This document shows, one piece after another, positions 49,917-64,000 of a stretch of DNA of 64,000 nt. Source of the stretch: Lachnospiraceae bacterium (GTDB taxonomy: Bacteria > Bacillota > Clostridia > Lachnospirales > Lachnospiraceae). Where the stretch lies: contig JAAUZJ010000001.1 of assembly GCA_014804695.1 (NCBI GenBank), positions 56,193 through 120,192 on the forward strand, read 5' to 3'. Within the stretch, counting starts at the first letter, position 1, and the number at the start of each line of letters is the position of its first letter. The translations under genes and the position numbers were made by a program. Under the pieces are notes generated by a model. The model was given only the letters and a program-made list of their open reading frames with translations, was not told the origin of the DNA and did not search any database.

Positions 49917-50243
49917 TTAAATCTGCATCTGCATAAGCTCTTTATATGCCTCAAGCAGTTTGTCCCTGATGGATACAGTATACTGCAGGGCAGTTGACGC
50001 TTTCATTAATGCTATTGATAGATCATGGGTATTCTCAGTCTCTCCAAGCGCCCACTTTATCTCTTCATTTTCTGCATCAGAAAGATAACTGTTCGTTGTA
50101 TTAATATTATCGATTGCAGTTCCAAGCAAATCATTAAAACTCTTATCAACATATGTATCCGGCTTAGTTGTAGGCGCGTTTTTCGCAGCCTCTTTAATCG
50201 CGCCGGAAGACACGTTATATAGTGCATTAATATCCAAAGCCAT
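49917..50243 (-). CDS. fliE: Flagellar hook-basal body protein FliE
   Basis: Small rod-MS-ring junction protein of 108 residues. The C-terminal ALMKASTALQYTVSIRDKLLEAY helix is the family hallmark and FNDLL lies in the N-terminal third. It follows flgC in the standard order, with GGAGG before the ATG. Confidence 0.95.
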   Translation of the reverse strand: MALDINALYNVSSGAIKEAAKNAPTTKPDTYVDKSFNDLLGTAIDNINTTNSYLSDAENEEIKWALGETENTHDLSIALMKASTALQYTVSIRDKLLEAYKELMQMQI

Positions 50244-50288
50244 TTTACTTTCCTCCGATACTATTAACTTTAATTATCTGACTTCACC

Positions 50289-50735
50289 TTAGCTGTTTAA
50301 CATATCAAGTCCCTTGGTCGCAATATTTTTGCTTGCGGAAAAAGCCGTTGAATTAGCCTCATAAGCGCGGCTTGCATCAATAAGGTTCGTCATCTCCGTT
50401 ATCGTATTTACGTTAGGATATGTAACATAACCATTCTCATCAGCATCGGGATGTGACGGATCATAAACCATATTCATCTCTGTCCACTCGTCCTCATAAA
50501 CGCCATTTACCTTAACTCCGTTTCCTGAATAACGATGCTTTGCCGTAGTAAGCACATGATGGAAATTGTGCGGAGAATTCTTCTCCTCAAACACTACCAC
50601 CTTTCTACGATATGGCGTGCCGTCTTCGGTACGCGTCGTATTGGTATTAGCAATATTCTGCGATATGATATCCATTCGGAAGCGTTCCGCCGTCATACCG
50701 GTAGCATTAATGTCAAAAGCAGTAAACATTCCCAT
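50289..50735 (-). CDS. flgC: Flagellar basal body rod protein FlgC
   Basis: Proximal rod protein of 148 residues. The N-terminal AFDINATGMTAERFRMDII with SQNIANTNTTRT and the C-terminal LIDASRAYEANSTAF are characteristic. GGAGG precedes the ATG. It starts 19 bases after flgB. Confidence 0.96.
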   Translation of the reverse strand: MGMFTAFDINATGMTAERFRMDIISQNIANTNTTRTEDGTPYRRKVVVFEEKNSPHNFHHVLTTAKHRYSGNGVKVNGVYEDEWTEMNMVYDPSHPDADENGYVTYPNVNTITEMTNLIDASRAYEANSTAFSASKNIATKGLDMLNS

Positions 50736-50754
50736 AGTCTATTCTCCTCCCACT

Positions 50755-51153
50755 CTATTTCATAACAGACTGCAGATTCTTAAATTCCTGATTAATACTA
50801 AGCACAAGCCCCTGATATGTAACCTGATTCTTCGCAAGATATACACCCTCTGTATCGATATCCACGTTGTTACCGTCCAGACGATAAGAAAAACCTGCAT
50901 AGTCGGTATAATATAAAGGATTCAGACGGTTTGACTTAATATTAGACACTCTGGCATCCATTGAAGTATATCTGGAATTATGCAAAGCCTTCGCAAGCTG
51001 TGATTCAAAATCCACATCCTGTCTCTTATATCCAGGCGTATCTACATTGGATATATTATTGCTTATTGCATCATTACGCAGCCAGGAAGCATCCGCCGCC
51101 TTATCAAGTACGTTAATATAATCAAATACATTGGTATTAATTAAAGCACTCAT
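50755..51153 (-). CDS. flgB: Flagellar basal body rod protein FlgB
   Basis: Proximal rod protein of 132 residues and first gene of the flagellar region. It has RNDAISNNISNVDTPGYKR and the C-terminal SINQEFKNL segment. ATG 51153 with GAGGTG upstream is preferred; a GTG two codons earlier overlaps the site. Two possible promoters and phased repeats lie in the 263-base gap before it. Confidence 0.96.
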   Translation of the reverse strand: MSALINTNVFDYINVLDKAADASWLRNDAISNNISNVDTPGYKRQDVDFESQLAKALHNSRYTSMDARVSNIKSNRLNPLYYTDYAGFSYRLDGNNVDIDTEGVYLAKNQVTYQGLVLSINQEFKNLQSVMK

Positions 51154-51190
51154 AATCACACCTCATCCATTTTAGTAAAATCCATATAAC

Positions 51191-51219
51191 ATTATAAAAT
51201 TATTTCATAAAAATTACAA
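51191..51219 (-). promoter_or_regulatory. SigA-type promoter close to flgB
   Basis: Minus strand TTGTAA, 17 bases, TATAAT. The -10 is perfect and the -35 matches four of six; the start site would be about 30 bases before the flgB ATG. Confidence 0.6.
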
Positions 51220-51336
51220 TACATAAGCTGAAAAAAATATAACCTTCTTTAGTAAAAAAAGTATAATACTGGGAAAAAAAAGATTTATAACTGCCAAATA
51301 ACATCCGTTATAAATCCTTTTATAATCCGTCACTCC

Positions 51337-51366
51337 ATTGTATATATGTAGTTTTATTAGTCTCAA
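51337..51366 (-). promoter_or_regulatory. Second SigA-type promoter upstream of flgB
   Basis: Minus strand TTGAGA, 18 bases, TACAAT, five of six matches in each box. It is directly downstream of the phased repeats at 51371-51410 and would give a leader of about 175 bases. Confidence 0.5.
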
Positions 51367-51370
51367 TACA

Positions 51371-51410
51371 AATTTATTACATTTTATTACAATCTATTAC
51401 GTTTTATTAT
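51371..51410. repeat. Four phased 10-base A/T repeats
   Basis: Four consecutive ten-base units on the plus strand: AATTTATTAC, ATTTTATTAC, AATCTATTAC and GTTTTATTAT. The core TATTAC recurs once per helical turn just upstream of the TTGAGA promoter, on the side where an UP element or activator site would be. Confidence 0.7.
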
Positions 51411-51422
51411 ATCTCAGCTTTA

Positions 51423-52208
51423 TTAAATTTCATTACGCTCTTTAAGTTTCTCGACTTCTTCAAAAACAACGTCGTTAAGAATTTTAATATAAGTTCCTTT
51501 CATTCCTGACGAACGGGATTCAATAACACCCGCACTCTCAAACTTACGCAAAGCGTTAACTATAACTGAACGGGTAATTCCTACTTTATCAGCAATTTTA
51601 CTTGCAACAAGTATACCCTCCATGCCGCCAAGCTCATCAAATATATGCGTAATTGCTTCCATTTCCGAAAAAGAAAGTGTACTTATAGCCGATTTGACTA
51701 CCGCAATCTTACGGTTTTCTTCAGCATTTTCCTCACTTACCGCCCTAAGCATCTCTAAGCCGACTACTGTAGTTCCGTATTCACAAAGTATAATATCGTC
51801 AATATCATACTGCTCATCCTGCTTATAAATAAAAAGCGTACCCAGCCTTTCACCGGAAATTTCAATAGGTGTGATCAATGCCTGAAACCTTTTTATATCA
51901 ACGTTTTCAAAACCTAATGTTTCAAGATTCACATTTTCCTTAGTGGAGAGCACACCCAGAAGTCTTTCGTTAAGCATACCGTCTATAAAACCGCCGACAT
52001 GATCCACAATAAGCTCTGTAAGCGATACTACACCGCTCAACTCACCGATTCCAAGCACCTTGCCCTTCTTGCTTATTACCAGAACATTAGATGCCAGAAT
52101 ATCTTTCAAAACGTCGCAAATATCATTGAACACAACCTTGCCCGAATTATTATTATGCAGCAGCTTTCCTATTTTTCTGGTCTTATCTAATAATTGTACG
52201 CCACCCAT
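51423..52208 (-). CDS. codY: Global transcriptional regulator CodY
   Basis: GTP and branched-chain amino acid-responsive regulator of Firmicutes. The N-terminal VQLLDKTRKIGKLLHNNNSG and GAF-type domain are followed by a winged helix-turn-helix with SKIADKVGITRSVIVNALRKF, nearly invariant in CodY. 261 residues, normal. In Bacillus codY also lies directly before flgB and represses it. ATG 52208 is used; an upstream TTG has no site. Confidence 0.96.
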   Translation of the reverse strand: MGGVQLLDKTRKIGKLLHNNNSGKVVFNDICDVLKDILASNVLVISKKGKVLGIGELSGVVSLTELIVDHVGGFIDGMLNERLLGVLSTKENVNLETLGFENVDIKRFQALITPIEISGERLGTLFIYKQDEQYDIDDIILCEYGTTVVGLEMLRAVSEENAEENRKIAVVKSAISTLSFSEMEAITHIFDELGGMEGILVASKIADKVGITRSVIVNALRKFESAGVIESRSSGMKGTYIKILNDVVFEEVEKLKERNEI

Positions 52209-52234
52209 TACCAATTAATCGCCTTTCAAAAGTT

Positions 52235-54322
52235 TTAACTATATGCTTCTTCGAGTTTAGGCTGTGCATCTTCCACATAGCCGCAATTCTCGTCAGCGCA
52301 TACCAGTTTATTGCCTTTTTGCAGCATAATCCCTCCGCATCTTGGACATTTCTTGTCAACAGGCTTCTGCCATACCATGAAATCACACTGAGGATTGTCT
52401 ACACATCCGTAATATTTTCTGCCCTTTCTGGTCTTCTTAAACACTATATCTTTGCCGCATTTAGGACAGGCAACTCCGATTTTCTCCAAATAAGGTTTGG
52501 TATTCCGGCAGTCCGGAAAGCCGGGGCATGCAAGAAATCTGCCGTGAGAGCCATATTTAATCACCATATTTCTTCCGCAGTTCTCACAAATTTCATCCGA
52601 TACCTCGTCAGCTATTTCTACCTTTTCCAAATCCTGCTGCGCTTGGTCTACGGCCTGCGCCAAATCGGGATAAAAATTAGATATTACGGTCTTCCATTTA
52701 ACACTGCCCTCCGCTACGCCGTCTAAAAGCGCCTCCATAGTTGCCGTAAAATTCACGTCAACTATCGACGGAAAGGCTTCTTTCATAATATTATTAACAA
52801 TCTCTCCAAGCTCCGTCACATATAAATTCTTATTTTCCTTTACAATGTAGCGTCTGGCAAGGATAGTCGTAATTGTCGGTGCATAGGTACTTGGACGTCC
52901 GATTCCAAGTTCTTCAAGAGCCCTCACAAGCGAAGCCTCGGTATAATGCGGCGCAGGCTGTGTGAAATGCTGCTTTTCCTCAAATGAACCAAACGTCAGT
53001 TTGGTATCTTTAGTGATTTCTTTTACTAACGTATTATTTTCTTCTTTTTCCTCATCATCAGTATATACGCTTAAGAAACCATCAAACTTGATTCTGGATG
53101 CCGACACTGTAAAACGTTGTCCTGCCGCATCTATTTTTACGGAAGTAGTCTCATATTTGGCGGCTGCCATCCGGCTTGCCACAAAACGTTTCCAAATAAG
53201 CTGGTAGAGCCTGAACTGGTCTCTGGATAACGAATCCTTAAGCGCCGCCGGAGTCATCGTAATATCCGTAGGACGGATTGCTTCATGCGCATCCTGAATC
53301 TTCTGACTGCTTTTCTTATCATTCTCCACTGTAGCGGCATATTCCTGCCCGTAAGTTTCTACAATATATTCATTTGCCATTTTCTGGGCTTCATCGGAAA
53401 TTCTGGTAGAATCAGTACGAAGGTAAGTAATAATACCGACAGTGCCGTTTCCCTTAATATCAATGCCCTCATACATCTGCTGAGCAATCCGCATGGTTTT
53501 TTGTGTGGAAAAATTCAAATTCTTACTTGCTTCCTGCTGCAGAGTAGATGTTGTAAAAGGCAGAGGCACCTTCTTAACACGCTCACCGTGCTTTACTTCG
53601 CTCACCTCATACTCAGCATCTTTTAAACTGTTTTTAATCTTTTCTAATTCTTCCTTTGAAGAAATATCCTGTTTCTGTTTAGTCGTTCCGTAATATTTGG
53701 CAACTAACGGTTTCTTCTCTCCGGCAAGCTTAAATGCCGCCTCAAGCGTCCAGTATTCTTCAGGGATAAAAGCATTAATTTCTTCTTCCCTGTCGCATAT
53801 GATCCTAAGCGCAACCGACTGAACCCGCCCTGCGCTTAAACCTCTTTTAACTTTCGCCCAAAGAAGCGGTGAAATCTTATAACCCACCATACGGTCAAGA
53901 CAGCGCCTTGCCTGCTGCGCATCCACTAAGTCCATATCAATTTCCCTGGCATTTTTCAAGGATTCTTTTACCGCGCTTTTGGTAATTTCATTAAAAGTAA
54001 TACGGTATACCTTCTTGCCTTCTAATTTAAGGGCATACATAAGATGCCATGAAATTGCTTCTCCTTCGCGGTCAGGGTCAGTTGCAAGATATATTTTATC
54101 CGCTTTCTTAACCTCTTTACGCAAAGATGCGAGAATATCGCCTTTTCCTCTTATGGTAATATATTTGGGTTCAAAATTATGTTCAACGTCTATGCCAAGC
54201 TGACTCTTAGGTAAATCACGTACATGCCCATTGCTTGCAGTAACCTCATAATTCGCCCCTAGAAATTTCTTAATCGTCTTAACCTTCGCCGGCGACTCCA
54301 CAATAACCAAATATTTTGCCAT
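52235..54322 (-). CDS. topA: DNA topoisomerase I
   Basis: Type IA topoisomerase that relaxes negative supercoils. It opens with a TOPRIM domain (VIVESPAKVKTIKKFLG, ATDPDREGEAISWHL), contains the catalytic Tyr in GIITYLRTDSTRIS, and ends with three four-cysteine zinc motifs: CENC...CPGFPDC, CPKC...C...C and CPRC...C...C. 695 residues. GGGGA lies before the ATG. Confidence 0.97.
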   Translation of the reverse strand: MAKYLVIVESPAKVKTIKKFLGANYEVTASNGHVRDLPKSQLGIDVEHNFEPKYITIRGKGDILASLRKEVKKADKIYLATDPDREGEAISWHLMYALKLEGKKVYRITFNEITKSAVKESLKNAREIDMDLVDAQQARRCLDRMVGYKISPLLWAKVKRGLSAGRVQSVALRIICDREEEINAFIPEEYWTLEAAFKLAGEKKPLVAKYYGTTKQKQDISSKEELEKIKNSLKDAEYEVSEVKHGERVKKVPLPFTTSTLQQEASKNLNFSTQKTMRIAQQMYEGIDIKGNGTVGIITYLRTDSTRISDEAQKMANEYIVETYGQEYAATVENDKKSSQKIQDAHEAIRPTDITMTPAALKDSLSRDQFRLYQLIWKRFVASRMAAAKYETTSVKIDAAGQRFTVSASRIKFDGFLSVYTDDEEKEENNTLVKEITKDTKLTFGSFEEKQHFTQPAPHYTEASLVRALEELGIGRPSTYAPTITTILARRYIVKENKNLYVTELGEIVNNIMKEAFPSIVDVNFTATMEALLDGVAEGSVKWKTVISNFYPDLAQAVDQAQQDLEKVEIADEVSDEICENCGRNMVIKYGSHGRFLACPGFPDCRNTKPYLEKIGVACPKCGKDIVFKKTRKGRKYYGCVDNPQCDFMVWQKPVDKKCPRCGGIMLQKGNKLVCADENCGYVEDAQPKLEEAYS

Positions 54323-54444: not shown

Positions 54445-56133
54445 TTATAAATCGAATGAAACCTTTACCATTTCATTAACGGAAGTAATACCTTCCTTAA
54501 CGTATTCGGTCGCGCTCATACGCAGTGTGCTCATGCCTTCTTCAAGTGCCTTATTTTTAATTGCTTCCGCATCGCCGTTCTTACTGATAATGCTCTTTAG
54601 CGGCTGGGTTACTTCCATAATCTCATAAACACCGATTCTTCCTTTAAATCCGGTGCCATCGCATTTAGAGCAGCCACAAGGTTCATATATCGTAACATCT
54701 TCATTCGGAGCATAGCCTAACAGCTCAAGTTCTTCTGCATCCGCTTTTTTGGGTTTCTTACACTCAGGGCACAGACGACGAACCAGACGCTGTGCAATAA
54801 CGCCGATAGTAGAGTCCGCTATCAGATACGGCTCAATACCCATATCGGTCAAACGCGTAATTGTACTTGCTGCCGAGTTGGTATGCAGGGTTGAAACCAC
54901 AAGGTGACCTGTAATAGACGCCTGTACGGCAATCGAAGCGGTCTCCTGGTCACGGATCTCACCTATCATGATAATATCGGGATCCTGCCTCAAAATTGAA
55001 CGCAGTGCACTTGCAAATGTCAATTCCGCCTTGTTATTTACCTGTACCTGATTGATACCGTCAATATTTGCCTCTACAGGGTCCTCTACGGTAATAATAT
55101 TAACATCTTCTTTATTTAATTCACTAAGCGCCGTATAAAGCGTTGTAGACTTACCACTACCCGTAGGTCCCGTAACAAGAAGGATTCCATGTGGGTTCTG
55201 GAGTATGTGGTCGAATTTCTTAAGTTCCTTTGGATTAAATCCAAGCTGGCTCTTAGAGCGCGTCAAGGCGTTCTTGGAAGTAAGACGCATAACTATCTTC
55301 TCACCGTATACAGTAGGAAGAATGGAAACACGGATATCAAACTCCTGTCTGTCTACAATCTGGGTTATACGTCCATCCTGTGGTTTTCTTTTTTCTGAAA
55401 TATCCATACCGCCTATGATCTTGATACGCGCTACCATAGCCGGAAGCAGCCTTATACTGTAGGTTGCCTTCTCATACAAAGCACCGTCGATACGGTATCT
55501 GATACGAACCTGACGCTCCATCGGCTCAATATGTATATCGGAAGACCGCTGTCTTACCGCCTGTTCAATCAGGTTCTTGACAAGCTGTACAATAGGAGAA
55601 TTGTTGACATCCTCACTGTACATATCCTCCTGCTCCGCCATCAGACTCTCTTTTTCCTTGGTATACTCTTCCAAGGCTGAATTAACCTCGGCATTACCGA
55701 CATATTTATCTAACGCCATCATAATGCTTCTTGTGGTAGATATTACGGGTTCAACCTGAAGGTTAGTAATAAGCGTAAGATCGTCTATCGCCGCAAGGTC
55801 AGTCGGATTCGACATTGCCACACGAAGTACGTTTAAGTTATCCGGCGCATACTCAAACGGCATTACCTTATATTTCTCAAGAATATTGGCAGGAACGAGA
55901 TTAACAATATCCTCTGTTATTACTACGTTCTGAAGATCTATTATGTCATACCCAAGCTGACTGCTAAGCGCTCTGTTAATAGCTTCTTCCGACGCAATTC
56001 CCTCATCTACCAAAACCTCGCCCAGCTTACGGCTGCCCTTGATTTCAAGAGCCTTTTCAAGCTGTTCCTCAGTTATAACACCGCTGTTTACAAGCAGGTC
56101 GCCCATTCGTACCTTTTTTGCACCATATGCCAT
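54445..56133 (-). CDS. pilB: Type IV pilus/type II secretion assembly ATPase (PilB/GspE)
   Basis: Hexameric ATPase that drives pilus extension or secretion. The N-terminal MshEN-like domain carries two related halves (MGDLLVNSGVITEEQLEKAL and KLGEVLVDEGIASEEAI). The core has Walker A GPTGSGKS at 322-329, the Asp box TVEDPVE, Walker B MIGEIRD, a His box STLHTNSA and the zinc-binding CPEC/CSKC cysteines. 562 residues. It follows the DUF5057-type gene after a gap with two hairpins. No other pilus gene lies in this window. Confidence 0.93.
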   Translation of the reverse strand: MAYGAKKVRMGDLLVNSGVITEEQLEKALEIKGSRKLGEVLVDEGIASEEAINRALSSQLGYDIIDLQNVVITEDIVNLVPANILEKYKVMPFEYAPDNLNVLRVAMSNPTDLAAIDDLTLITNLQVEPVISTTRSIMMALDKYVGNAEVNSALEEYTKEKESLMAEQEDMYSEDVNNSPIVQLVKNLIEQAVRQRSSDIHIEPMERQVRIRYRIDGALYEKATYSIRLLPAMVARIKIIGGMDISEKRKPQDGRITQIVDRQEFDIRVSILPTVYGEKIVMRLTSKNALTRSKSQLGFNPKELKKFDHILQNPHGILLVTGPTGSGKSTTLYTALSELNKEDVNIITVEDPVEANIDGINQVQVNNKAELTFASALRSILRQDPDIIMIGEIRDQETASIAVQASITGHLVVSTLHTNSAASTITRLTDMGIEPYLIADSTIGVIAQRLVRRLCPECKKPKKADAEELELLGYAPNEDVTIYEPCGCSKCDGTGFKGRIGVYEIMEVTQPLKSIISKNGDAEAIKNKALEEGMSTLRMSATEYVKEGITSVNEMVKVSFDL

Positions 56134-56185
56134 GTTGATACACCTCTGTTTTGTCTTTTTTTAATCAAGTCACTACACTAGCGAT

Positions 56186-56220
56186 GTTTGAGCCAGATGC
56201 TGCCAGAGTCTGACTCAAAC
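56186..56220 (-). repeat. 12 bp stem hairpin upstream of pilB
   Basis: Minus strand GTTTGAGTCAGA and TCTGGCTCAAAC pair over 12 positions including one G-U wobble, around an 11-base loop. No T run follows. Confidence 0.75.
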
Positions 56221-56224
56221 TCGC

Positions 56225-56249
56225 AGTTTAAAATCTCCGATTTTAAACT
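56225..56249 (-). repeat. 11 bp perfect hairpin directly after the DUF5057-type gene stop
   Basis: Arms AGTTTAAAATC and GATTTTAAACT with a 3-base loop begin at the stop codon of the large gene. There is no U tract on the minus strand, so it is not a standard terminator. Confidence 0.75.
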
Positions 56250-59200
56250 TAGTCAAGTTCGAACAAGTATGCCCTAAGTACCTGTAATTTTGCATACACC
56301 TTATCTGTTGTATAAACATTCTCAGTGGTTGTATTAGTTTTAACCGTACTCTGTGCTTCGAAGTAAATATCCAAGCCCTTCTCACAGTTACTCATTACAT
56401 CCTTAGGTACCAGAATATAGTAAATATCACCACTGGTAAGATGATAGGCATCTACAAGATTATCTGTCTCCGCATCATACATACGGTCTTCAAGCTGAAT
56501 TACACTTATCTCCTCGCCACCTACGGTAATTGTCTCGTTTCCGCCAATTTCGTCAATATGATAATATGCATGTGTCTCTATTTCCCTGGTTCCTTTTACA
56601 AAGTTAATATCACGTACCGTAAAGTAAACCTTCTCGTAATTCTCTTTATTGGCAAGATCCGTAATAGATATATCATGTTGACTATCATAGTATCTGTACA
56701 TGGTCGTAAGCTGTGAGGCATCCGGTGAACCGCTCTCAAGTACTGTAACCGTAGGCGGTTTAACTCCTGCCTGATAGGATGCGATCATAGTATTGATGAA
56801 AAGTTTGGCTTCATCAAATGTGTACCATACTGCCCAGCTTCTATCATTCTTACTTGCGTGGCCCATTCCTGTATATGTAATATTACCCTTATTATAAATA
56901 TAGTAATTATTACGCACATCATTCGGTGACTGTGAATAAATTGTTTCACTCTTGCCTGAAGTTGAAGTCCTTCCTCCAAGACAATACCACACTACCAAAT
57001 CGCTTTGACCGTCACCATCATCATCTGCGGTGTAATCAAGCTGGTAATACTGTGCATGAGTCAGTCCTACTTCAAAATCATCTTCGAGTCTATATGGATA
57101 TTCCGTAATCTGGCCCTCATTTACCTGGGTTACATGAACCTGCCATACTTCTCCGTTATTGACAATTTCCATCTCACCATTATCTTTACCATAGTTAGTT
57201 CCACCATTATCCCAATAATAACAGTCATCAAAACGCTGGCTGACATATGAATTACGGAAACTATCCAACTCACCCAAATTCATATCATTTTTTGTATAAT
57301 CAAGATTGGCGTTATTGCCGTCGTGTCTTTTATCCTTAGCGCTGATTGTAGAATAAGTATATCCCTGTGCCTCCGGGACAGACTCTTTTCTTCCGCTCTT
57401 AGGTTTATAGGCAACATCCTTTCCTGAACTAACCAGACTATTCCAGTCCGAACTTCCCTCATGCATAGCAACGCCACGCTTAACTACGGAAGAACTAAGG
57501 ACGCCATAACGATCCATTCCTACCAACGGACGGATATATTTATTCAAGGTTGCTGAAAAACGTGTGTCATCCTTATATCCATATAAACCACCATTAGTAT
57601 ATCCAAGTTCAGTGCCATCGACTATAGGATTATTGAAGAAAGAAGTCGTATCATGTGCCATAAGGACACTCTTTCCGCTGTTAATGAAATCCACTATAGC
57701 ACCCATAGCGCCGCTCTCACTATCTCCGGTAAAGTCACCGTACATATCCGAGAAGCCAAGAATCAGCATATTAAAATCGGATAAATAATCATTATTATTG
57801 CTGAAATTCTCTTCATACTCAGGAATCGTGATAGTCGTTACATCGAGCTCGAAATCATTTGTTATACCCGGATAATTAACTCCGTTATAATCTCCGCCAT
57901 ATACCAGAATATTGAAATAGGTGCCGGAAGTATTGATTTCCTTATCCAAATTAATTACATCATCGCCCACTTTGGTAATCTGACAGATTTTAAGGACCTC
58001 TTTGTCAAGTCCGGTCAGTTTGGTATATCCCTGTTCGGAAGCATAAATATTTTCATTATCAATCTGACATACTTCTACTTTCCAAGGCAGAAGCCCTTTA
58101 TAACCGGTCGGGACCTCCCTTATAATCGTATACGGAACTCCGGCATAAAGTTCATTCGATGAAACATAGCCGCCTGTATTCCTGTTCGTCATTGCTATAT
58201 CCGCAACTTCCTCAAATTCGGAGAACTTACCATCGGCATTAACATCTATATAGAGTTTGCAGTAATACTTGGTATCCATACTTGCAGCGCCCTCATTTTT
58301 AATCGTAAAGCTATACTGCAATGTATATCTTCCTACGGTATTCGGATATATGTAATACGCATCATTAACCCCGGTACCTCCATCTAATGAACCACCTTTA
58401 AAACCATTCGCAGAGAATTCAATCAAACTTGCCTTTGGACGGTTTAAATAGAATTTTAAAAGCTCTGAACCGGTTTCATCTATATCGCCTTTTACATAGA
58501 AATTTGTATACTTTTTCTTCAAAGCAGTATCTACAAGCTCATATAAATAACTACTGTTATCTATATGATTTTCGTCTATTGCCCTAACCGGCTGTGAATC
58601 TGTATCTTCAACTTTTCTCACTATAATGGAACGAGCACGGTTATTCCATGTCAGTCCGGATCCCTCCACTTTAGATGTTGTCAAATTTTTAACATCTTCT
58701 TTAATAGTTATGGATTTACCTTTAAAATTATCCTCCTCGAATAAAGTAATCTGATATCCCTTCTTAACCTGAATACTTGAAATTCCCTTAGCCGGCGTAT
58801 TAGCTGCTGCGTAAATCTGGTTATCTAACAAATCCTGTTCCGAATAATCTCCAACATCCAGAGTTGCCCGTCTTCCGGCATACTCATCATCCTCAAAAAG
58901 CGTCACCGGCTGTTCGATAAACTCATCCGAAACAATTATCGGGTATGACCCATTAAGGAAAGATATTAACGCATCTTTCTTTTCCTTCGTAATATCATTT
59001 CCGCCATATCTTGTAAAGTTGTAGTAATATGTTCTGCCACTAGTGTATTCCGAATCAAGCAAACCGGACATAGGCAGATATACAGCACGCTTATCACCGA
59101 TATTATAATAGATAAGTCCATCCATATCCTTGTCGTTGAATACAGTGCTTCCAAGATATTCGTTATCCTTGCTCTTTCCGGTTTCCGTAACCCAATTGCT

Positions 59201-62200
59201 AATGTTTAAATGCTCCTTGGATGTTCCAATATATACAAGGTCATAGATTTCATTTATCTTATCAATCTTACCTATAAACTCGGCTGTGGTCATAATGGTA
59301 GTTTCTACCTCTTCGACTCCCGGAGCCCACTTCTGTAGCTGCTCTTTGGTAATCTCCGCCTCGGTTGTAAGCGCAGGCTGAATTTCAAGCACTTTTATGC
59401 TCTTTTTCGTTTCTACATTCCTGCGGTTCTGATAGTTCAGAATATGCCTTACTGCCTCAGCCTGGGCAATATTAGTAGACAAAGGTTTATAATTACCTGA
59501 GGTATCAGACTCACGATACAGATTCTCTAACTTAATTTCATCCAAAACATTCTGGAAGCCCTCTTCAATCTCTCCGCCTTCCTTATATATAGTATAGTTA
59601 AAGAAATTATCGTTAATAATAGAGTCGCTTCCGTTACCAAGCCTGCAGTATACCTGCTCGGTTGTAAAGTTCTTGTCGGCATCGTCTACGATACCTTTCA
59701 ACAAATTCTCCTTAGAGACACTGGTATAATCCTTTTCCAAAGTTTCCTGGCAAAGCATGGCTGCCAGTCTGAACAGCTCGGTATTATCTGTATTAGCATC
59801 ACTCGCAATAATATTACCGCCGACTTCAGCCTTACCATATATAATCAAACCGTCTACCAGACAAGGAAGTGCCTTGGCTGATACTGTTTTAAATATAAGA
59901 TCAGATACTTTATCCTTCAAATCAACACCAGCGGTGTTGTACAGGACTATTGAAGCGTCTGATTTATTGTCTGAATCTGATGAAGGGTTTTCTTTATCAG
60001 ATTCACCATCAGCATTGCCTTCTTCTGAATTATCAGTGTCTACGGCATCGCCTGCATTGTCACCGTCTGTATCATCGGTGTTGTCTTTATTGTCGGAGTC
60101 ATCCGCGTTATCAGCATCACCTGTGGTGTCATCGTTATTGTTAATATCATCTGTAGTGTCACCATCGCTGTTGCTGCCATCTGTGGCGTCATCATTATTA
60201 TTGGTGTCACCTGCAACATCAGTATTATCGTCATTTCCTGTGCTGTCCGCAGCTCCGGTGTTGCTATCGTCAGCTTTGCTATCTTTAGTATTCTCAACGG
60301 CATCGTTCGATGTATCGGAATCCGATGAAACCTCACTCTTAGACACATCTGCAGAATCATCCTTTGAAACAAATGCCTTCCATAATGATGATTTGCCAGA
60401 ATAACTGCTGTTATTTACATTACTTGTTTTACTTTCACTGCCATTGTTCTCAGTATCAGCTGCATTTTTATTATCTGAATTATTGCTATTATCTGAATTA
60501 TTGCTATTATCAGAATTTTCGGCATTGCTGCTGTTGTCTGCAGAATTGTCTACATTACCGCCATCTCCGCTGTCGGTATTGCCACCCTCTTCAGTACTAT
60601 CATCATTTCCTGCTTTATCAGCATTATCTCCGGTGTTATCGTCGTCTCCGGTATTACCGGTATCACCGTTATCTCCGGTGTTATCGTCGTCTCCGGTATT
60701 ATCGGTATCACCATTATCTCCGGTATTATCGGCACCCTCATCTTTACTAGGATCAGCCCCCTTATTGTCACCTTCTCCATCTGATGGGGTAGTAATAACT
60801 ATGTCAGTAGATGTTCTATAGCCCGAATTGAGATAAAGGAAATCAAAATCAGGTATAGTACCCTGCTCATACTCATCCGTACCTTCTTCATAAATCTTAT
60901 TCAACATTTCAGGTGTAAGTGTAATAACTTTGACCTTAAAATTGTCGAAGTTCTCTTTGTTCATGTTAATAACATACTGTTTGAACCATTCATTATTATG
61001 GAAAATGCCCTTGCAGTAAAGGATTCTTCCGGGGAAGGTGTATGTCTGGATATTCTCACCATCTTTAACCTCTGCAAAATTGTACTGTCCCGTATAATGT
61101 TCATTTTCAATACCATAATTGGACAATTTAGCAGGTTTAATATCATTAACAACATAAGCTCCGGTATTCTTAAGAGAAGCTATATCGGTAACTCTTTCAA
61201 AATAAACAATATAATAACTTTCACTCTTATCCTGCGCCTGTGCCGTTTGAACTATTGAATTATCTTTTCCTGAATTTTTATCAGAATCCTTATCGGAATC
61301 TTTTTTATCATCATCCGAATCATCTCCCTCATTATCATCAGAATTGTCATCGGAATCATCACCGTCATTGTCATCAGAGTTATCTCCGGATTCATCACCA
61401 TTATCTCCGGAATTACCGCCTTGATTATCGCCAGTATTGTTTCCGGAGTTATCTCCATTATTGTCTCCGCTATTATCACCGGCATTATCTCCATTATTGT
61501 CTCCGCTATTATCACCGGCATTATCTCCATTATTGTCTCCACTATTATCGCCGGCATTATCTCCATTATTGTCTCCACTATTATCGCCGGCATTATCTCC
61601 ATTATCATCTCCGCCATTATCAGCGCCATCCGCAGTGGTATTATCAGAATCATTGCTCTGATCCGTACCGGCATTATTGTTAACTCCGTCACTATTGGTT
61701 CCGGAGTTAGTGTTTTCCTGTTTATTAGGAGAAGAAACCTTATCGGAAGTTCCAGACTTATCATCATCTGTACTTACATATTTAAGCCACTTCACCTGTG
61801 CAAAAGAACTTCCTAATGCCTTATTTTCACTTGCGGCATTATTTTCAATACCATTTTCATCATTTCCTCCGGTTCCGTCTACGCTATCTCCGTTATCGTT
61901 TCCGTCAGTCTCATTCGTGTTTTCTTCGCTGTCATTTTCGGCATTTTCGTTTCCGCCATCTCCACCCGCATTATCTCCGCTTCCATTTTCAGCGTCACCA
62001 TTTCCATTTTCACCGACATCATCTCCACTATCATCGGTGTTATCGTCATTCTTCTTATCGCCGCTATCCTCCTCATCATCGTCGGGAACCTTTTCCTCGC
62101 TTGAAGAAGAAAAAGAAATGCTGTCTTTAATCTCTCCCCATGTTCCGATACACCGATATAAAGCTCCGTCTAGCTTATAAATATACGTTCCATCGGCAAT

Positions 62201-62872
62201 ATCGTCAGCTGAATCGTATATCGGTTTTTCACTAAGCACTTTATAATAAACTGCATCCAGCTGTTTTTCAATATTTTCATAAGATATGTATTCTAAAGAT
62301 ACATAATATTTTCCACTATCATCGATAGCAGGCTTAAAATAGCCTGTCATATCATAACTGCCAGCTTCTACTTCCTCGTATCCGTCTATATAATCTTCGC
62401 TATCATCATAATCTTCTGTAGGACTTGTGACTGGAAAATTATCTTTTATGCCCTGTGCAGCATAATAATCCTCAAGCGCTTTCTTCTTTTCAAGCATAAA
62501 AGCCTGTCGTTCAGCTTTAGTATCAAAGCTGCACAGTACATCTTTCCAGCTCTTCCATGTCATTGTCTCACTATCCCATTCGGAAAGAACCGGCTCATAT
62601 CCATCAAAAAGATAACCAATTTCTGCGGCATTTATATCCGGTACAATTTCCAATACCGTGTACTCATCGCCTTCAGAAAACTGATTTCTCAACTTTTCAA
62701 TTCCCATAAGGGTATCCGCATTTTCCGCTGCCTGTGTACTGCTAAACACAGAAGAGACAACAACAGCGCCGGTAAGCAATACTGCTGTTGTCGCCGCTGC
62801 AATACGTCTATTACGTCCTGATTTAACAATGTCCATGAATTTACTTGTATTAATTTTCCCTACTTTTTTCAT
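56249..62872 (-). CDS. Giant DUF5057-type exported protein with acidic repeats
   Basis: About 2207 residues with an N-terminal signal-type segment (hydrophobic about 25-48, possible cleavage after TQA). The next domain starts with LEIVPDINAAEIGYL, which resembles DUF5057. Two very long low-complexity regions (about 288-535 and 698-970) consist mainly of Asp, Asn, Gly and Ser. Later parts include a beta/gamma-crystallin-like pair (about 1320-1422), an EF-hand-like loop DVNADGKFSEFE near 1542, a GATase-like region with GAIVDFINSGKSVLMAHDT, a DDDGDGQSD loop, and an Ig-like tail. No sortase or anchor signal is seen. It sits directly before pilB, so a pilus-linked surface function is inferred. ATG 62872 has GGAAG; a TTG at 62887 is unlikely. 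Confidence 0.75.
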   Translation of the reverse strand: MKKVGKINTSKFMDIVKSGRNRRIAAATTAVLLTGAVVVSSVFSSTQAAENADTLMGIEKLRNQFSEGDEYTVLEIVPDINAAEIGYLFDGYEPVLSEWDSETMTWKSWKDVLCSFDTKAERQAFMLEKKKALEDYYAAQGIKDNFPVTSPTEDYDDSEDYIDGYEEVEAGSYDMTGYFKPAIDDSGKYYVSLEYISYENIEKQLDAVYYKVLSEKPIYDSADDIADGTYIYKLDGALYRCIGTWGEIKDSISFSSSSEEKVPDDDEEDSGDKKNDDNTDDSGDDVGENGNGDAENGSGDNAGGDGGNENAENDSEENTNETDGNDNGDSVDGTGGNDENGIENNAASENKALGSSFAQVKWLKYVSTDDDKSGTSDKVSSPNKQENTNSGTNSDGVNNNAGTDQSNDSDNTTADGADNGGDDNGDNAGDNSGDNNGDNAGDNSGDNNGDNAGDNSGDNNGDNAGDNSGDNNGDNSGNNTGDNQGGNSGDNGDESGDNSDDNDGDDSDDNSDDNEGDDSDDDKKDSDKDSDKNSGKDNSIVQTAQAQDKSESYYIVYFERVTDIASLKNTGAYVVNDIKPAKLSNYGIENEHYTGQYNFAEVKDGENIQTYTFPGRILYCKGIFHNNEWFKQYVINMNKENFDNFKVKVITLTPEMLNKIYEEGTDEYEQGTIPDFDFLYLNSGYRTSTDIVITTPSDGEGDNKGADPSKDEGADNTGDNGDTDNTGDDDNTGDNGDTGNTGDDDNTGDNADKAGNDDSTEEGGNTDSGDGGNVDNSADNSSNAENSDNSNNSDNSNNSDNKNAADTENNGSESKTSNVNNSSYSGKSSLWKAFVSKDDSADVSKSEVSSDSDTSNDAVENTKDSKADDSNTGAADSTGNDDNTDVAGDTNNNDDATDGSNSDGDTTDDINNNDDTTGDADNADDSDNKDNTDDTDGDNAGDAVDTDNSEEGNADGESDKENPSSDSDNKSDASIVLYNTAGVDLKDKVSDLIFKTVSAKALPCLVDGLIIYGKAEVGGNIIASDANTDNTELFRLAAMLCQETLEKDYTSVSKENLLKGIVDDADKNFTTEQVYCRLGNGSDSIINDNFFNYTIYKEGGEIEEGFQNVLDEIKLENLYRESDTSGNYKPLSTNIAQAEAVRHILNYQNRRNVETKKSIKVLEIQPALTTEAEITKEQLQKWAPGVEEVETTIMTTAEFIGKIDKINEIYDLVYIGTSKEHLNISNWVTETGKSKDNEYLGSTVFNDKDMDGLIYYNIGDKRAVYLPMSGLLDSEYTSGRTYYYNFTRYGGNDITKEKKDALISFLNGSYPIIVSDEFIEQPVTLFEDDEYAGRRATLDVGDYSEQDLLDNQIYAAANTPAKGISSIQVKKGYQITLFEEDNFKGKSITIKEDVKNLTTSKVEGSGLTWNNRARSIIVRKVEDTDSQPVRAIDENHIDNSSYLYELVDTALKKKYTNFYVKGDIDETGSELLKFYLNRPKASLIEFSANGFKGGSLDGGTGVNDAYYIYPNTVGRYTLQYSFTIKNEGAASMDTKYYCKLYIDVNADGKFSEFEEVADIAMTNRNTGGYVSSNELYAGVPYTIIREVPTGYKGLLPWKVEVCQIDNENIYASEQGYTKLTGLDKEVLKICQITKVGDDVINLDKEINTSGTYFNILVYGGDYNGVNYPGITNDFELDVTTITIPEYEENFSNNNDYLSDFNMLILGFSDMYGDFTGDSESGAMGAIVDFINSGKSVLMAHDTTSFFNNPIVDGTELGYTNGGLYGYKDDTRFSATLNKYIRPLVGMDRYGVLSSSVVKRGVAMHEGSSDWNSLVSSGKDVAYKPKSGRKESVPEAQGYTYSTISAKDKRHDGNNANLDYTKNDMNLGELDSFRNSYVSQRFDDCYYWDNGGTNYGKDNGEMEIVNNGEVWQVHVTQVNEGQITEYPYRLEDDFEVGLTHAQYYQLDYTADDDGDGQSDLVVWYCLGGRTSTSGKSETIYSQSPNDVRNNYYIYNKGNITYTGMGHASKNDRSWAVWYTFDEAKLFINTMIASYQAGVKPPTVTVLESGSPDASQLTTMYRYYDSQHDISITDLANKENYEKVYFTVRDINFVKGTREIETHAYYHIDEIGGNETITVGGEEISVIQLEDRMYDAETDNLVDAYHLTSGDIYYILVPKDVMSNCEKGLDIYFEAQSTVKTNTTTENVYTTDKVYAKLQVLRAYLFELD
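60624..60733 (-). repeat. 45-base tandem repeats in the giant gene
   Basis: Two nearly identical 45-base units (60624-60668 and 60669-60713) and a partial third encode 15-residue units of type TGDNGDTGNTGDDDN. The reading frame is kept. Confidence 0.85.
61449..61592 (-). repeat. 36-base tandem repeat (minisatellite) in the giant gene
   Basis: Four in-frame 36-base units at 61449, 61485, 61521 and 61557; units 1-2 are identical, 3-4 are identical, and the two pairs differ at two bases. A diverged fifth unit follows. Each encodes GDNAGDNSGDNN-type 12-residue repeats. Confidence 0.92.
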
Positions 62873-62896
62873 AATCCGCACTTCCAATCATATACT

Positions 62897-62927
62897 ACCT
62901 GCGCTGTGAATTATTCACAGCGCAGGT
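62897..62927 (-). repeat. 14 bp perfect hairpin before the giant gene
   Basis: Arms ACCTGCGCTGTGAA and TTCACAGCGCAGGT with a 3-base loop lie between the partial gene stop and the giant gene start. It is GC-rich and perfect but has no T run on either strand. Confidence 0.85.
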
Positions 62928-62950
62928 TTACATAAATATAGTGTTCCCAT

Positions 62951-64000
62951 TTACACAAACTTCACATAACAATAGGTATATACGCTTGGATATTCTTTCA
63001 TGTATACCTTAACTGTTGCGCTCTTAATCTTGATGTCTCCATACACCTGCCAATCATATAGACCACTATTATTGATGACCTTAAAATTTGAATAGCCTCT
63101 AAGCATTTTAGGTGTACCAGCAACAACGTTAGTATCATTCCATGGTAACCCTTCCGGCTCTACAGTCACACCTGCCGGTGCTTCATAATCTAAAGTAATA
63201 TCATAATCAAAAACATGCGGTTCCTCTTGCCATGTATTGCAATAATATCCTATAACTTTATAATAGAAGTCAAACCCAGAATTTACATTACCTGTAGAAG
63301 TAGTAGTCTGACCATACAACTGAACATTACTTATATAATGAATACGACTATAGTTCCAAGTTGATCCATTTTTATATTCAAAATTAACCTCCACCATTAT
63401 ATAAAACTCTCGATCTGCCGGCAGGTCCTTATCAACAGTAAGCCAATAGTTAATTTTTTTACCTTCACCAAAATCGTAGGGCACTCCCAAATCTCCACCA
63501 TTCATGTCGAGAAGAACATGATCTTTCAACTCAGGTTCAACGTTTATTCTATTTCCATCCTTATCACAAAAATAATAATCGTAACTGGCAATTTGACACC
63601 AGCATTCGCCATCTACTACAGGCGGCCAAAACCAATACCAGTTCTCTCCATAACCACCACTGACTCCGCCTACGCCTTTTCCACGTTCCATTACAGAGTC
63701 CCCACCTAACGTTCTCTCAGGCGGAATATTATAATATACACGATCCGATACACTCTGATTAGTTGTAGGTGAATATAATGTAAGTATTATTTCTAATTGT
63801 TTATTATAATTTTCAGACTTTTGTATAATCGTCAAATCCAGAGTCTTATTTGTACTTGTAAAGCTTTCCACTCTGCTAGCTTCCACTACTTCCCATGTAT
63901 ATTTCAGCAACGCCTCATCTTCGTCGGTAAAGTCCGTCGTATGATATTCCGAATCATAATGCACTGTAAAAACAGGGTCATCACCCATCGGGATAATTTT
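62951..64000 (-). CDS. C-terminal part of an unrecognised exported or surface protein
   Basis: The reading frame is open to the high-coordinate edge, so the N-terminus is missing; about 349 residues are visible. The sequence is rich in Tyr, Trp, Asp, Asn and Val with alternating beta-strand character, contains several Cys (for example WCQIASYDYYFC) and a Gly/Trp segment GVSGGYGENWYWFWPP. It ends YTYCYVKFV without a membrane segment or anchor signal. I do not recognise a family. Its place just before the giant exported protein and pilB suggests a shared transcript and a surface location. Confidence 0.7.
   Translation of the reverse strand, partial: KIIPMGDDPVFTVHYDSEYHTTDFTDEDEALLKYTWEVVEASRVESFTSTNKTLDLTIIQKSENYNKQLEIILTLYSPTTNQSVSDRVYYNIPPERTLGGDSVMERGKGVGGVSGGYGENWYWFWPPVVDGECWCQIASYDYYFCDKDGNRINVEPELKDHVLLDMNGGDLGVPYDFGEGKKINYWLTVDKDLPADREFYIMVEVNFEYKNGSTWNYSRIHYISNVQLYGQTTTSTGNVNSGFDFYYKVIGYYCNTWQEEPHVFDYDITLDYEAPAGVTVEPEGLPWNDTNVVAGTPKMLRGYSNFKVINNSGLYDWQVYGDIKIKSATVKVYMKEYPSVYTYCYVKFV

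Follow-up and report, generated by a model that had tools for sequence, protein, structure and literature searches.

At one end of the window, which here means the whole 64,000-nucleotide stretch of Lachnospiraceae bacterium DNA that was analysed (bases 56193-120192 of a 192,781-bp contig, JAAUZJ010000001.1 of assembly GCA_014804695.1), three genes follow each other on the minus strand with gaps of 63 and 115 nt: one for a PilW-type minor prepilin, whose open reading frame (ORF) crosses the window end, one for a giant exported protein with the Pfam family DUF5057 (PF16480), and pilB, for the extension ATPase of type IV pili (T4P). DUF5057 is a conserved, previously unassigned T4P component, and the reading favoured here, at a probability of roughly 0.58, is that the protein would be a non-pilin tip component (adhesin or cap) of a monoderm type IVa pilus (T4aP). 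An earlier note, made from the window alone, had the consecutive genes, single strand and short gaps right, and its ~2.2k-residue, repeat-rich exported protein without a wall anchor is borne out by 2212 residues (aa), a signal peptide, two linkers and no anchor found. Its second unrecognised surface protein turns out to be the PilW-type minor prepilin, 674 aa long and cut by the window edge. The features are as follows, the residue numbers being those of the DUF5057 protein.

62951..64000, minus strand: PilW-type minor prepilin, C-terminal part; the ORF extends outside the window to L002:4167 (G000:C1:121167)
56249..62887, minus strand: DUF5057 giant exported protein, 2212 aa, TTG start, proposed non-pilin tip adhesin/cap (ORF, Pfam, linkage)
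54445..56133, minus strand: pilB, extension ATPase, 562 aa, with N-terminal MshEN of the c-di-GMP-binding type (Pfam, NCBIfam)
62729..62887, minus strand: Sec-type signal peptide region, residues 1-53, ...SSTQA|AEN, cleavage site by eye (sequence reading)
62639..62656, minus strand: first 'VLEIVP' motif, residues 78-83 (homologue comparison)
61118..62104, minus strand: acidic D/N/G/S-rich linker 1 with tandem repeats, residues 262-590 (composition, DNA repeats)
59648..60685, minus strand: acidic D/N/S-rich linker 2, residues 735-1080 (composition)
58883..59425, minus strand: module with 'VLEIQP ... YDLVYIG', residues 1155-1335 (alignment, profile comparison)
57650..58999, minus strand: Pfam DUF5057 (PF16480), residues 1297-1746 (Pfam)
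58664..58753, minus strand: weak match to beta/gamma-crystallin, residues 1379-1408 (21.3 bits, under the Pfam cut-off of 25)
58211..58246, minus strand: DVNADGKFSEFE loop, residues 1548-1559, putative EF-hand-like calcium-type loop (alignment)
57353..58015, minus strand: module with 'NMLILGFSDMY ... GKSVLMAHD', residues 1625-1845 (alignment, profile comparison)
56252..56266, minus strand: C-terminal tail LFELD-COOH, residues 2208-2212 (homologue ends)

The pilus operon beyond the window edge

The remaining pilus genes had been expected past position 64000, and PilC, the major pilin, PilD, PilM, a PilN/O-like protein, the end of pilT and four minor prepilins are there, with both pilin and PilC within 15 kb upstream on the same strand. 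On the minus strand the order in L002 is the end of pilT, a HAD/FkbH-like gene, comM, dprA, pilC, pilA, pilD, pilM and the PilN/O-like ORF, then prepilins of PilV type (452 aa), PilX type (847 aa), FimU type (218 aa) and PilW type (674 aa), followed by DUF5057 and pilB. Pfam identified PilC (T2SSF), the pilins (N_methyl), PilD (A24 peptidase) and PilM (PilM_2), and the calls for pilT, comM, dprA and the HAD gene, like the minor-pilin names, come from reading, gene order and prepilin features. N_methyl is above cut-off in the PilV, FimU, PilW and PilA of the window genome, and for its PilX Pfam lists nothing at E <= 0.1. The complete PilW-type gene (L002:2143-4167) encodes a class III prepilin with N_methyl, its N-terminus lying outside the window. 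The pilT of L002 is by reading a partial ORF, BLAST with which finds full-length copies in relatives. The PilN/O-like ORF (256 aa) has the expected position and an N-terminal membrane helix, with no Pfam family above cut-off. The PilM of 577 aa (L002:9578-11311, minus strand) has by reading a C-terminal part with a membrane helix and may be a PilM-PilN fusion. PilB carries T2SSE (469 bits) as well as MshEN in Pfam, and its top NCBIfam model is type IV-A PilB at 627 bits, below the model cut-off of 676. The genes for an extension ATPase, a platform protein, a prepilin peptidase, PilM, PilT and a major pilin are all present, and the locus upstream of DUF5057 is a type IVa pilus operon.

The dprA, comM and HAD/FkbH-like genes (by reading) lie between pilT and pilC outside the window (L002:14525-19299, minus strand). 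On the 3′ side of pilB, at 49917-54322 of the window (minus strand), are topA, codY and flagellar rod genes of flgB, flgC and fliE types, all by reading. Because comM, dprA and topA come after the T4P operon in relatives L045 and L056, the pilus genes seem to have been inserted near a dprA-topA-codY region.

Linkage of DUF5057 to pilB and to the minor prepilins

In a sample of 120 family genomes, nearly one per genus, 27 have PF16480. All of these also have a close PilB (scoring over 500 bits), which is found in 42 genomes altogether (Fisher p = 1.9e-16, the genera being related and so not independent). Another 18 have distant PilB-like ATPases alone, and none of these has PF16480. DUF5057 and pilB are on one contig in 19 genomes, on the same strand in all, and in 16 of them pilB is 13.6-17.3 kb upstream of DUF5057. 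The remaining ones are the window genome, where pilB comes after DUF5057, G018 (2.9 kb) and G054 (pilB 47.6 kb downstream).

Two sets of loci from relatives show which neighbour is kept. The first consists of 20 mapped DUF5057 loci, six PF16480 genomes (G007, G030, G031, G033, G076, G083) being unmapped around the match, and a PilW-type prepilin is directly upstream of DUF5057 in 19; in L042, the only one that departs from this, the locus has shrunk and a 652-aa remnant is left. The second (L075-L154) comprises the 80 retained of 197 relatives found in a contig scan, of which 12 are cut 5′ and one is without an upstream gene, leaving 67 to be judged. PilW is directly upstream in 60, with a median gap of 24.5 nt and 13 overlapping. 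The misses are L108, L109, L112, L119, L127, L128 and L153, counting L108 and L109, whose PilW overlap is beyond the rule, and L153, with one extra gene between. As five loci are common to both sets, the adjacency is found in 74 of 82 distinct loci. The exact order PilV-PilX-FimU-PilW is kept in 52 of the 60 second-set loci having at least four upstream genes; some BLAST labels of small prepilins are weak (tens of bits), and there the prepilin motif is also present.

By comparison, among the 20 loci L075-L094, 17 have pilB behind DUF5057 (a 206-aa ORF intervenes in L089 and L090); none of L095-L154 does by the labels used for them, nor does G049, a genome of the same genus. Its placement after DUF5057 is a rearrangement of the window clade. 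Since PilW adjacency is widespread and pilB adjacency clade-specific, the conserved unit is the minor pilins plus DUF5057, and pilB adjacency as the meaningful link was rejected. The DUF5057/pilB linkage proposed from the window alone is thus conserved as co-occurrence, the adjacency being peculiar to one clade and the conserved partner being the minor-pilin set.

Some individual loci merit mention. The window clade's gene order also occurs in L079, titled Muribaculaceae, whose protein has 69% identity to that of the window; given this match the bin label is probably wrong. L142 has several additional prepilin-like genes 3′ of DUF5057. In genome G083 a 600-aa ORF after PilW (L072:3-1802, minus strand), cut by the contig end and matching the profile of the first-motif region weakly (E 0.0012), is probably the other half of that genome's DUF5057 gene. 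The gap between PilW and DUF5057 in the window contains a hairpin (62897-62927, minus strand) with a perfect 14-bp stem, a 3-nt loop and no T run after it, which might set the DUF5057:pilin ratio. As a conserved element it was set aside: among loci whose gap plus 15 nt totals at least 25 nt, a perfect stem of at least 7 was found in just 2 of 45 others.

Beyond the family, a sample of the order had PF16480 in 12 of 196 genomes and one of the phylum, overlapping with it, in 7 of 398. Of the 14 DUF5057 loci read there, 12 are within T4P loci, one, L177, is a 4.6-kb contig, and one is in genome G212, taken up below. DUF5057 is linked to T4P loci in other genera, other families and a second class. 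In all three genomes of family f49, which belongs to that other class and is, at a guess, Paenibacillaceae, DUF5057 is divergent from pilB and faces PilX-like (by reading), PilW-like and PilV-like prepilin genes. A link that persists although the genes are ordered differently speaks against operon inheritance alone. L182:7170-17300 has two tandem DUF5057 genes (1633 and 1661 aa) and L180:5292-15206 encodes a DUF5057 protein of 3304 aa.

Features of the DUF5057 proteins and of the minor prepilins

The window DUF5057 ORF is intact with a single terminal stop, and an alternative ATG (62872), which is the likely start, lies five codons in and would give 2207 aa. Its DNA has tandem repeats of 36, 45 and 72 bp. 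PF16480 scores 126.1 bits against a gathering cut-off of 27.9. The protein ends AYLFELD without LPxTG, no wall-anchor domain was found in Pfam or NCBIfam at E <= 1, and no prepilin motif was seen. The insert that matches crystallin is present in it alone among 14 aligned sequences (alignment A1). In the second set 64 of 66 complete homologues have a signal peptide by a hydropathy rule, none has LPxTG in its last 120 residues and three have a loose lipobox pattern, these counts coming from an in-house script and not SignalP.

Conservation among 28 aligned family members, taken in 50-residue bins with the numbering of the L095 (Kineothrix) protein, is uneven: the mean top-residue fraction is 0.17-0.39 at residues 101-650 versus 0.28-0.61 at 701-1700, with 0.53 in the 51-100 bin and a maximum at 1451-1550. 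Three stretches have a common pattern, a 'VLEI-P' strand and '..T..EF...YD-IYIG'. In profile-profile comparison the N-half matches the second module (E 3.4e-6, probability 88), the second matches the third (E 1.5e-5, probability 80) and the N-half matches the third (E 2.9e-4, probability 40). The repeated stretches may resemble class I amidotransferase-like alpha/beta folds, and single modules gave only DUF5057 and chance matches in Pfam at E <= 10. Of 78 proteins with a complete C-terminal end, 75 have Leu as the last residue but one and 64 have Phe at -4.

Additional modules vary. The Pfam scan covered 28 of the 66 complete second-set proteins, chosen by excluding 18 near relatives and then taking the first 28 that fitted within a limit on residues; DUF5057 is in all, and Ig_2, Ig_3, SHIRT, CBM26 and a CBM-like module occur once each (E <= 0.001). 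Four DUF5057 proteins were scanned from outside the family: L186 and L187 have pAdhesive_15/choice-of-anchor A (an ice-binding-like adhesive domain) and Big_2, L189 has PA14 and CarboxypepD_reg plus GLEYA below cut-off, and L190 has DUF5057 alone. An adjoining large gene in L175 has NPCBM, CarboxypepD_reg, SdrD_B and SpaA.

In the DxNxDG core each of D, N, D and G is at least 90% kept (homologue alignment A2), and 53 of 101 proteins, a count in which five loci figure twice, have the strict 12-residue loop with a downstream W motif, versus 2 of 2020 shuffles. DxNxDG loops are common among extracellular proteins, and the loop is absent from three other-class DUF5057 proteins; on both grounds it was dropped as a diagnostic.

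Among the minor prepilins of the window genome PilX is the only one without Glu5 (G^AAMAM). The same is true of PilX in 61 of 61 second-set relatives, and Glu5 is present in FimU (58 of 58), PilW (61 of 61) and PilV (55 of 55 with the site found, 56 tried). A Glu5-less minor pilin caps the tip complex in type IV filaments, according to the available parts of two sources (PMC10191384, PMC7541494). The C-terminal tail of PilX is conserved in L075-L154, with Y at -7 in 49, W at -4 in 56 and K at -2 in 53 of 62. PilW length is bimodal, 127-208 or 423-1145 aa (n=60, L075-L154). In 32 long PilW, that of the window and 31 of the 43 in the second set, N_methyl is found in all at E <= 0.001, and F5/8 type C and Big_2 in two each. 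A PDB sequence search with the PilW protein gave no useful match.

A candidate tip component, its rivals and known systems

Because the locus supplies the cast that accompanies PilY1, with DUF5057 in PilY1's place, a tip adhesin or cap is inferred, and by this analogy a PilY1-like tip adhesin of separate origin is the most likely identity. Also in favour are the place right behind four minor prepilins, one of them a PilX that is without Glu5 like tip-capping pilins, the signal peptide with no wall anchor, and the adhesive or binding modules of some homologues. Docking at the tip is proposed from genetic context and analogy. The protein would be exported via Sec, and its conserved C-half would then attach to the minor-pilin complex at the PilX/PilW end, possibly by way of the tail at its C-terminus (LFELD here). 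The minor-pilin complex would start pilus extension and remain at the tip. Long flexible linkers would space out the variable N-half, which would bind a ligand (probably glycans or particle surfaces), and PilT retraction would then pull the cell or the ligand. A more specific proposal, held tentatively and at somewhat short of even odds, is that DUF5057 is a non-homologous PilY1 counterpart, a priming and tip subunit of Gram-positive T4P made of divergent copies of one module together with exchangeable binding modules, with its tail locked to the Glu5-less PilX by strand complementation. Of the unrecognised pilus- or secretion-linked assembly that the earlier note had suggested, the pilus link holds, and the simplest account of the assembly is a T4aP that includes a non-pilin tip component not assigned before.

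Several results weigh against a tip component of this kind. Fifteen close-PilB genomes are without PF16480. Seven of their operons are readable through PilW; the other eight could not be judged, as the contig ended or the part read had no operon. Four of the seven (L055, L057, L061, L066) have minor pilins and no such slot protein at all, so the protein is not universal in T4P operons; in three of these PilW is 416-516 aa long and may provide the binding function. The other three have a related slot protein (L065, L067, L056) that matches the first-motif-region profile (E 5e-12, 2.8e-5 and 4e-4) and ends LFDLD, LFNLE or IKDLD, respectively, and by this match and tail type the slot family is wider than DUF5057. 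Profile support for the repeated module spans just 32-44 columns in the second half of the pattern, and the first VLEIVP segment alone matches neither other module (probability 4 and 0.1). The exact LF-[DEN]-L-[DEN] tail is in just 43 of the 78 ends and is absent from the three other-class proteins. The PilX tail was rejected as a DUF5057-specific signature: it is kept also in the DUF5057-less operons L055, L057 and L066 and is therefore no specific docking partner. At least 23 of the 28 scanned family members have no Pfam module besides DUF5057 at E <= 0.001, and the sole extra module of the window protein is the sub-threshold crystallin match. DUF5057 as a PilY1 detectable by sequence was also rejected, as the window protein has no match to PF05567 (PilY1) at E <= 1 and a profile of 61 DUF5057 homologues found no PDB chain at E <= 5. 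Finally, G212 has two DUF5057 ORFs on a contig whose part read (19,965 of 32,365 bases) has no T4P gene; the sole PilB match of that genome (E <= 1e-40) is on a different contig and has an internal stop.

The G212 case, in which no T4P gene accompanies DUF5057 in the sequence read, and the T4P operons without DUF5057 would both suit a surface adhesin that works independently of the pilus and is merely co-transcribed for joint regulation. Against it, the place right after the minor pilins is kept across many genera, the link outlasts an inversion in another class and no wall-anchoring signal is seen, making this explanation improbable. To about the same degree we doubt that the protein is a soluble exoprotein cargo, bound to the minor-pilin tip and released to act elsewhere like TcpF or substrates of type II secretion systems (T2SS). 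Cargo would be expected to have the same gene position and a signal peptide, as found, and no anchor; TcpF and PulA are indeed classed with PilC1/2 as non-pilin tip-located effectors in the accessible part of one review (PMC10191384). A monoderm Sec substrate should, however, need no outer-membrane exit, and large size (1250-2417 aa in 66 of 67 complete second-set homologues, 3304 aa in L180), long linkers and, in some, binding modules suit a fixed adhesin better. Least probable is a base assembly factor, for instance one helping the pilus cross the thick wall: Gram-positive T4P are without an outer-membrane secretin and peptidoglycan crossing is listed as open in the part of a review consulted (PMC6916266), yet homologues vary greatly in length, some have adhesive or binding modules and some otherwise complete operons do without the protein.

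If DUF5057 is such a non-homologous counterpart of PilY1, the rule that Gram-positive T4P do without a PilY1-type non-pilin tip effector would not hold for many Lachnospiraceae with T4P, nor for some members of another class. A dedicated non-pilin tip protein in the genetic slot of PilY1, without sequence relation to it, would give the unassigned Pfam family PF16480 a function. It would also help to explain how gut Lachnospiraceae may hold on to mucus or food particles, and would suggest repeated evolution of a capped minor-pilin tip.

Of known systems PilC/PilY1 (PF05567), which in Gram-negative T4aP is a non-pilin tip adhesin and primes the pilus, is the nearest. DUF5057 likewise has a type I (Sec) signal peptide and no prepilin leader, and is encoded beside FimU-, PilV- and PilW-type prepilins and a Glu5-less PilX type. 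It is large, with exchangeable modules, and most family members have a DxNxDG loop of putative calcium type. Its N-half is variable and its C-half more conserved, and PilY1 is described as having a variable N-terminal and a conserved C-terminal part in the available text of PMC7541494. It differs in appearing by sequence to be without the PilY1 domain, which is C-terminal and a modified beta-propeller, in the window protein having no vWA or DUF4114 match, and in its loop, which is usually without the ninth-position Asp of the EF-hand-like calcium motif consensus of PilY1, Dx[DN]xDGxxD, as given in the part of PMC8833165 available. DUF5057 is also found in monoderms, and PilC/PilY1 is absent from Gram-positive T4P according to two reviews, as far as their accessible parts go (PMC4471445, PMC6916266). 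A PF05567 search matched 0 of 120 family and 0 of 299 phylum genomes, with no working positive control and so no claim of absence.

TcpF and T2SS cargo are alike in being non-pilin effectors presumably bound by a minor-pilin tip and differ from some DUF5057 homologues, which have binding modules. TcpF is also much smaller than DUF5057 proteins. Reviews of Gram-positive T4P ascribe adhesion to modular minor pilins, and the portions available of PMC6916266 and PMC10191384 describe the PilB and PilC of Streptococcus sanguinis as bearing adhesive modules on a Gram-positive pilus. The long PilW here is of the same kind, and the difference is that the S. sanguinis adhesins are prepilins while DUF5057 has a Sec-type signal peptide and no prepilin motif seen.

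'DUF5057' is in no paper of the literature searched, from which subscription papers were mostly absent, and no DUF5057-type protein is named for Gram-positive T4P in that literature, some of it available only in part. The operon figure for Paenibacillus thiaminolyticus, in the accessible part of its source, marks nameless hypothetical proteins (PMC9765702). The T4aP operons of that species, Clostridium perfringens and C. difficile share pilB, pilT, pilC, pilD, pilM, pilN/O and pilins with the one described here, which differs from them in having the full FimU/PilV/PilW/PilX-like set together with DUF5057.

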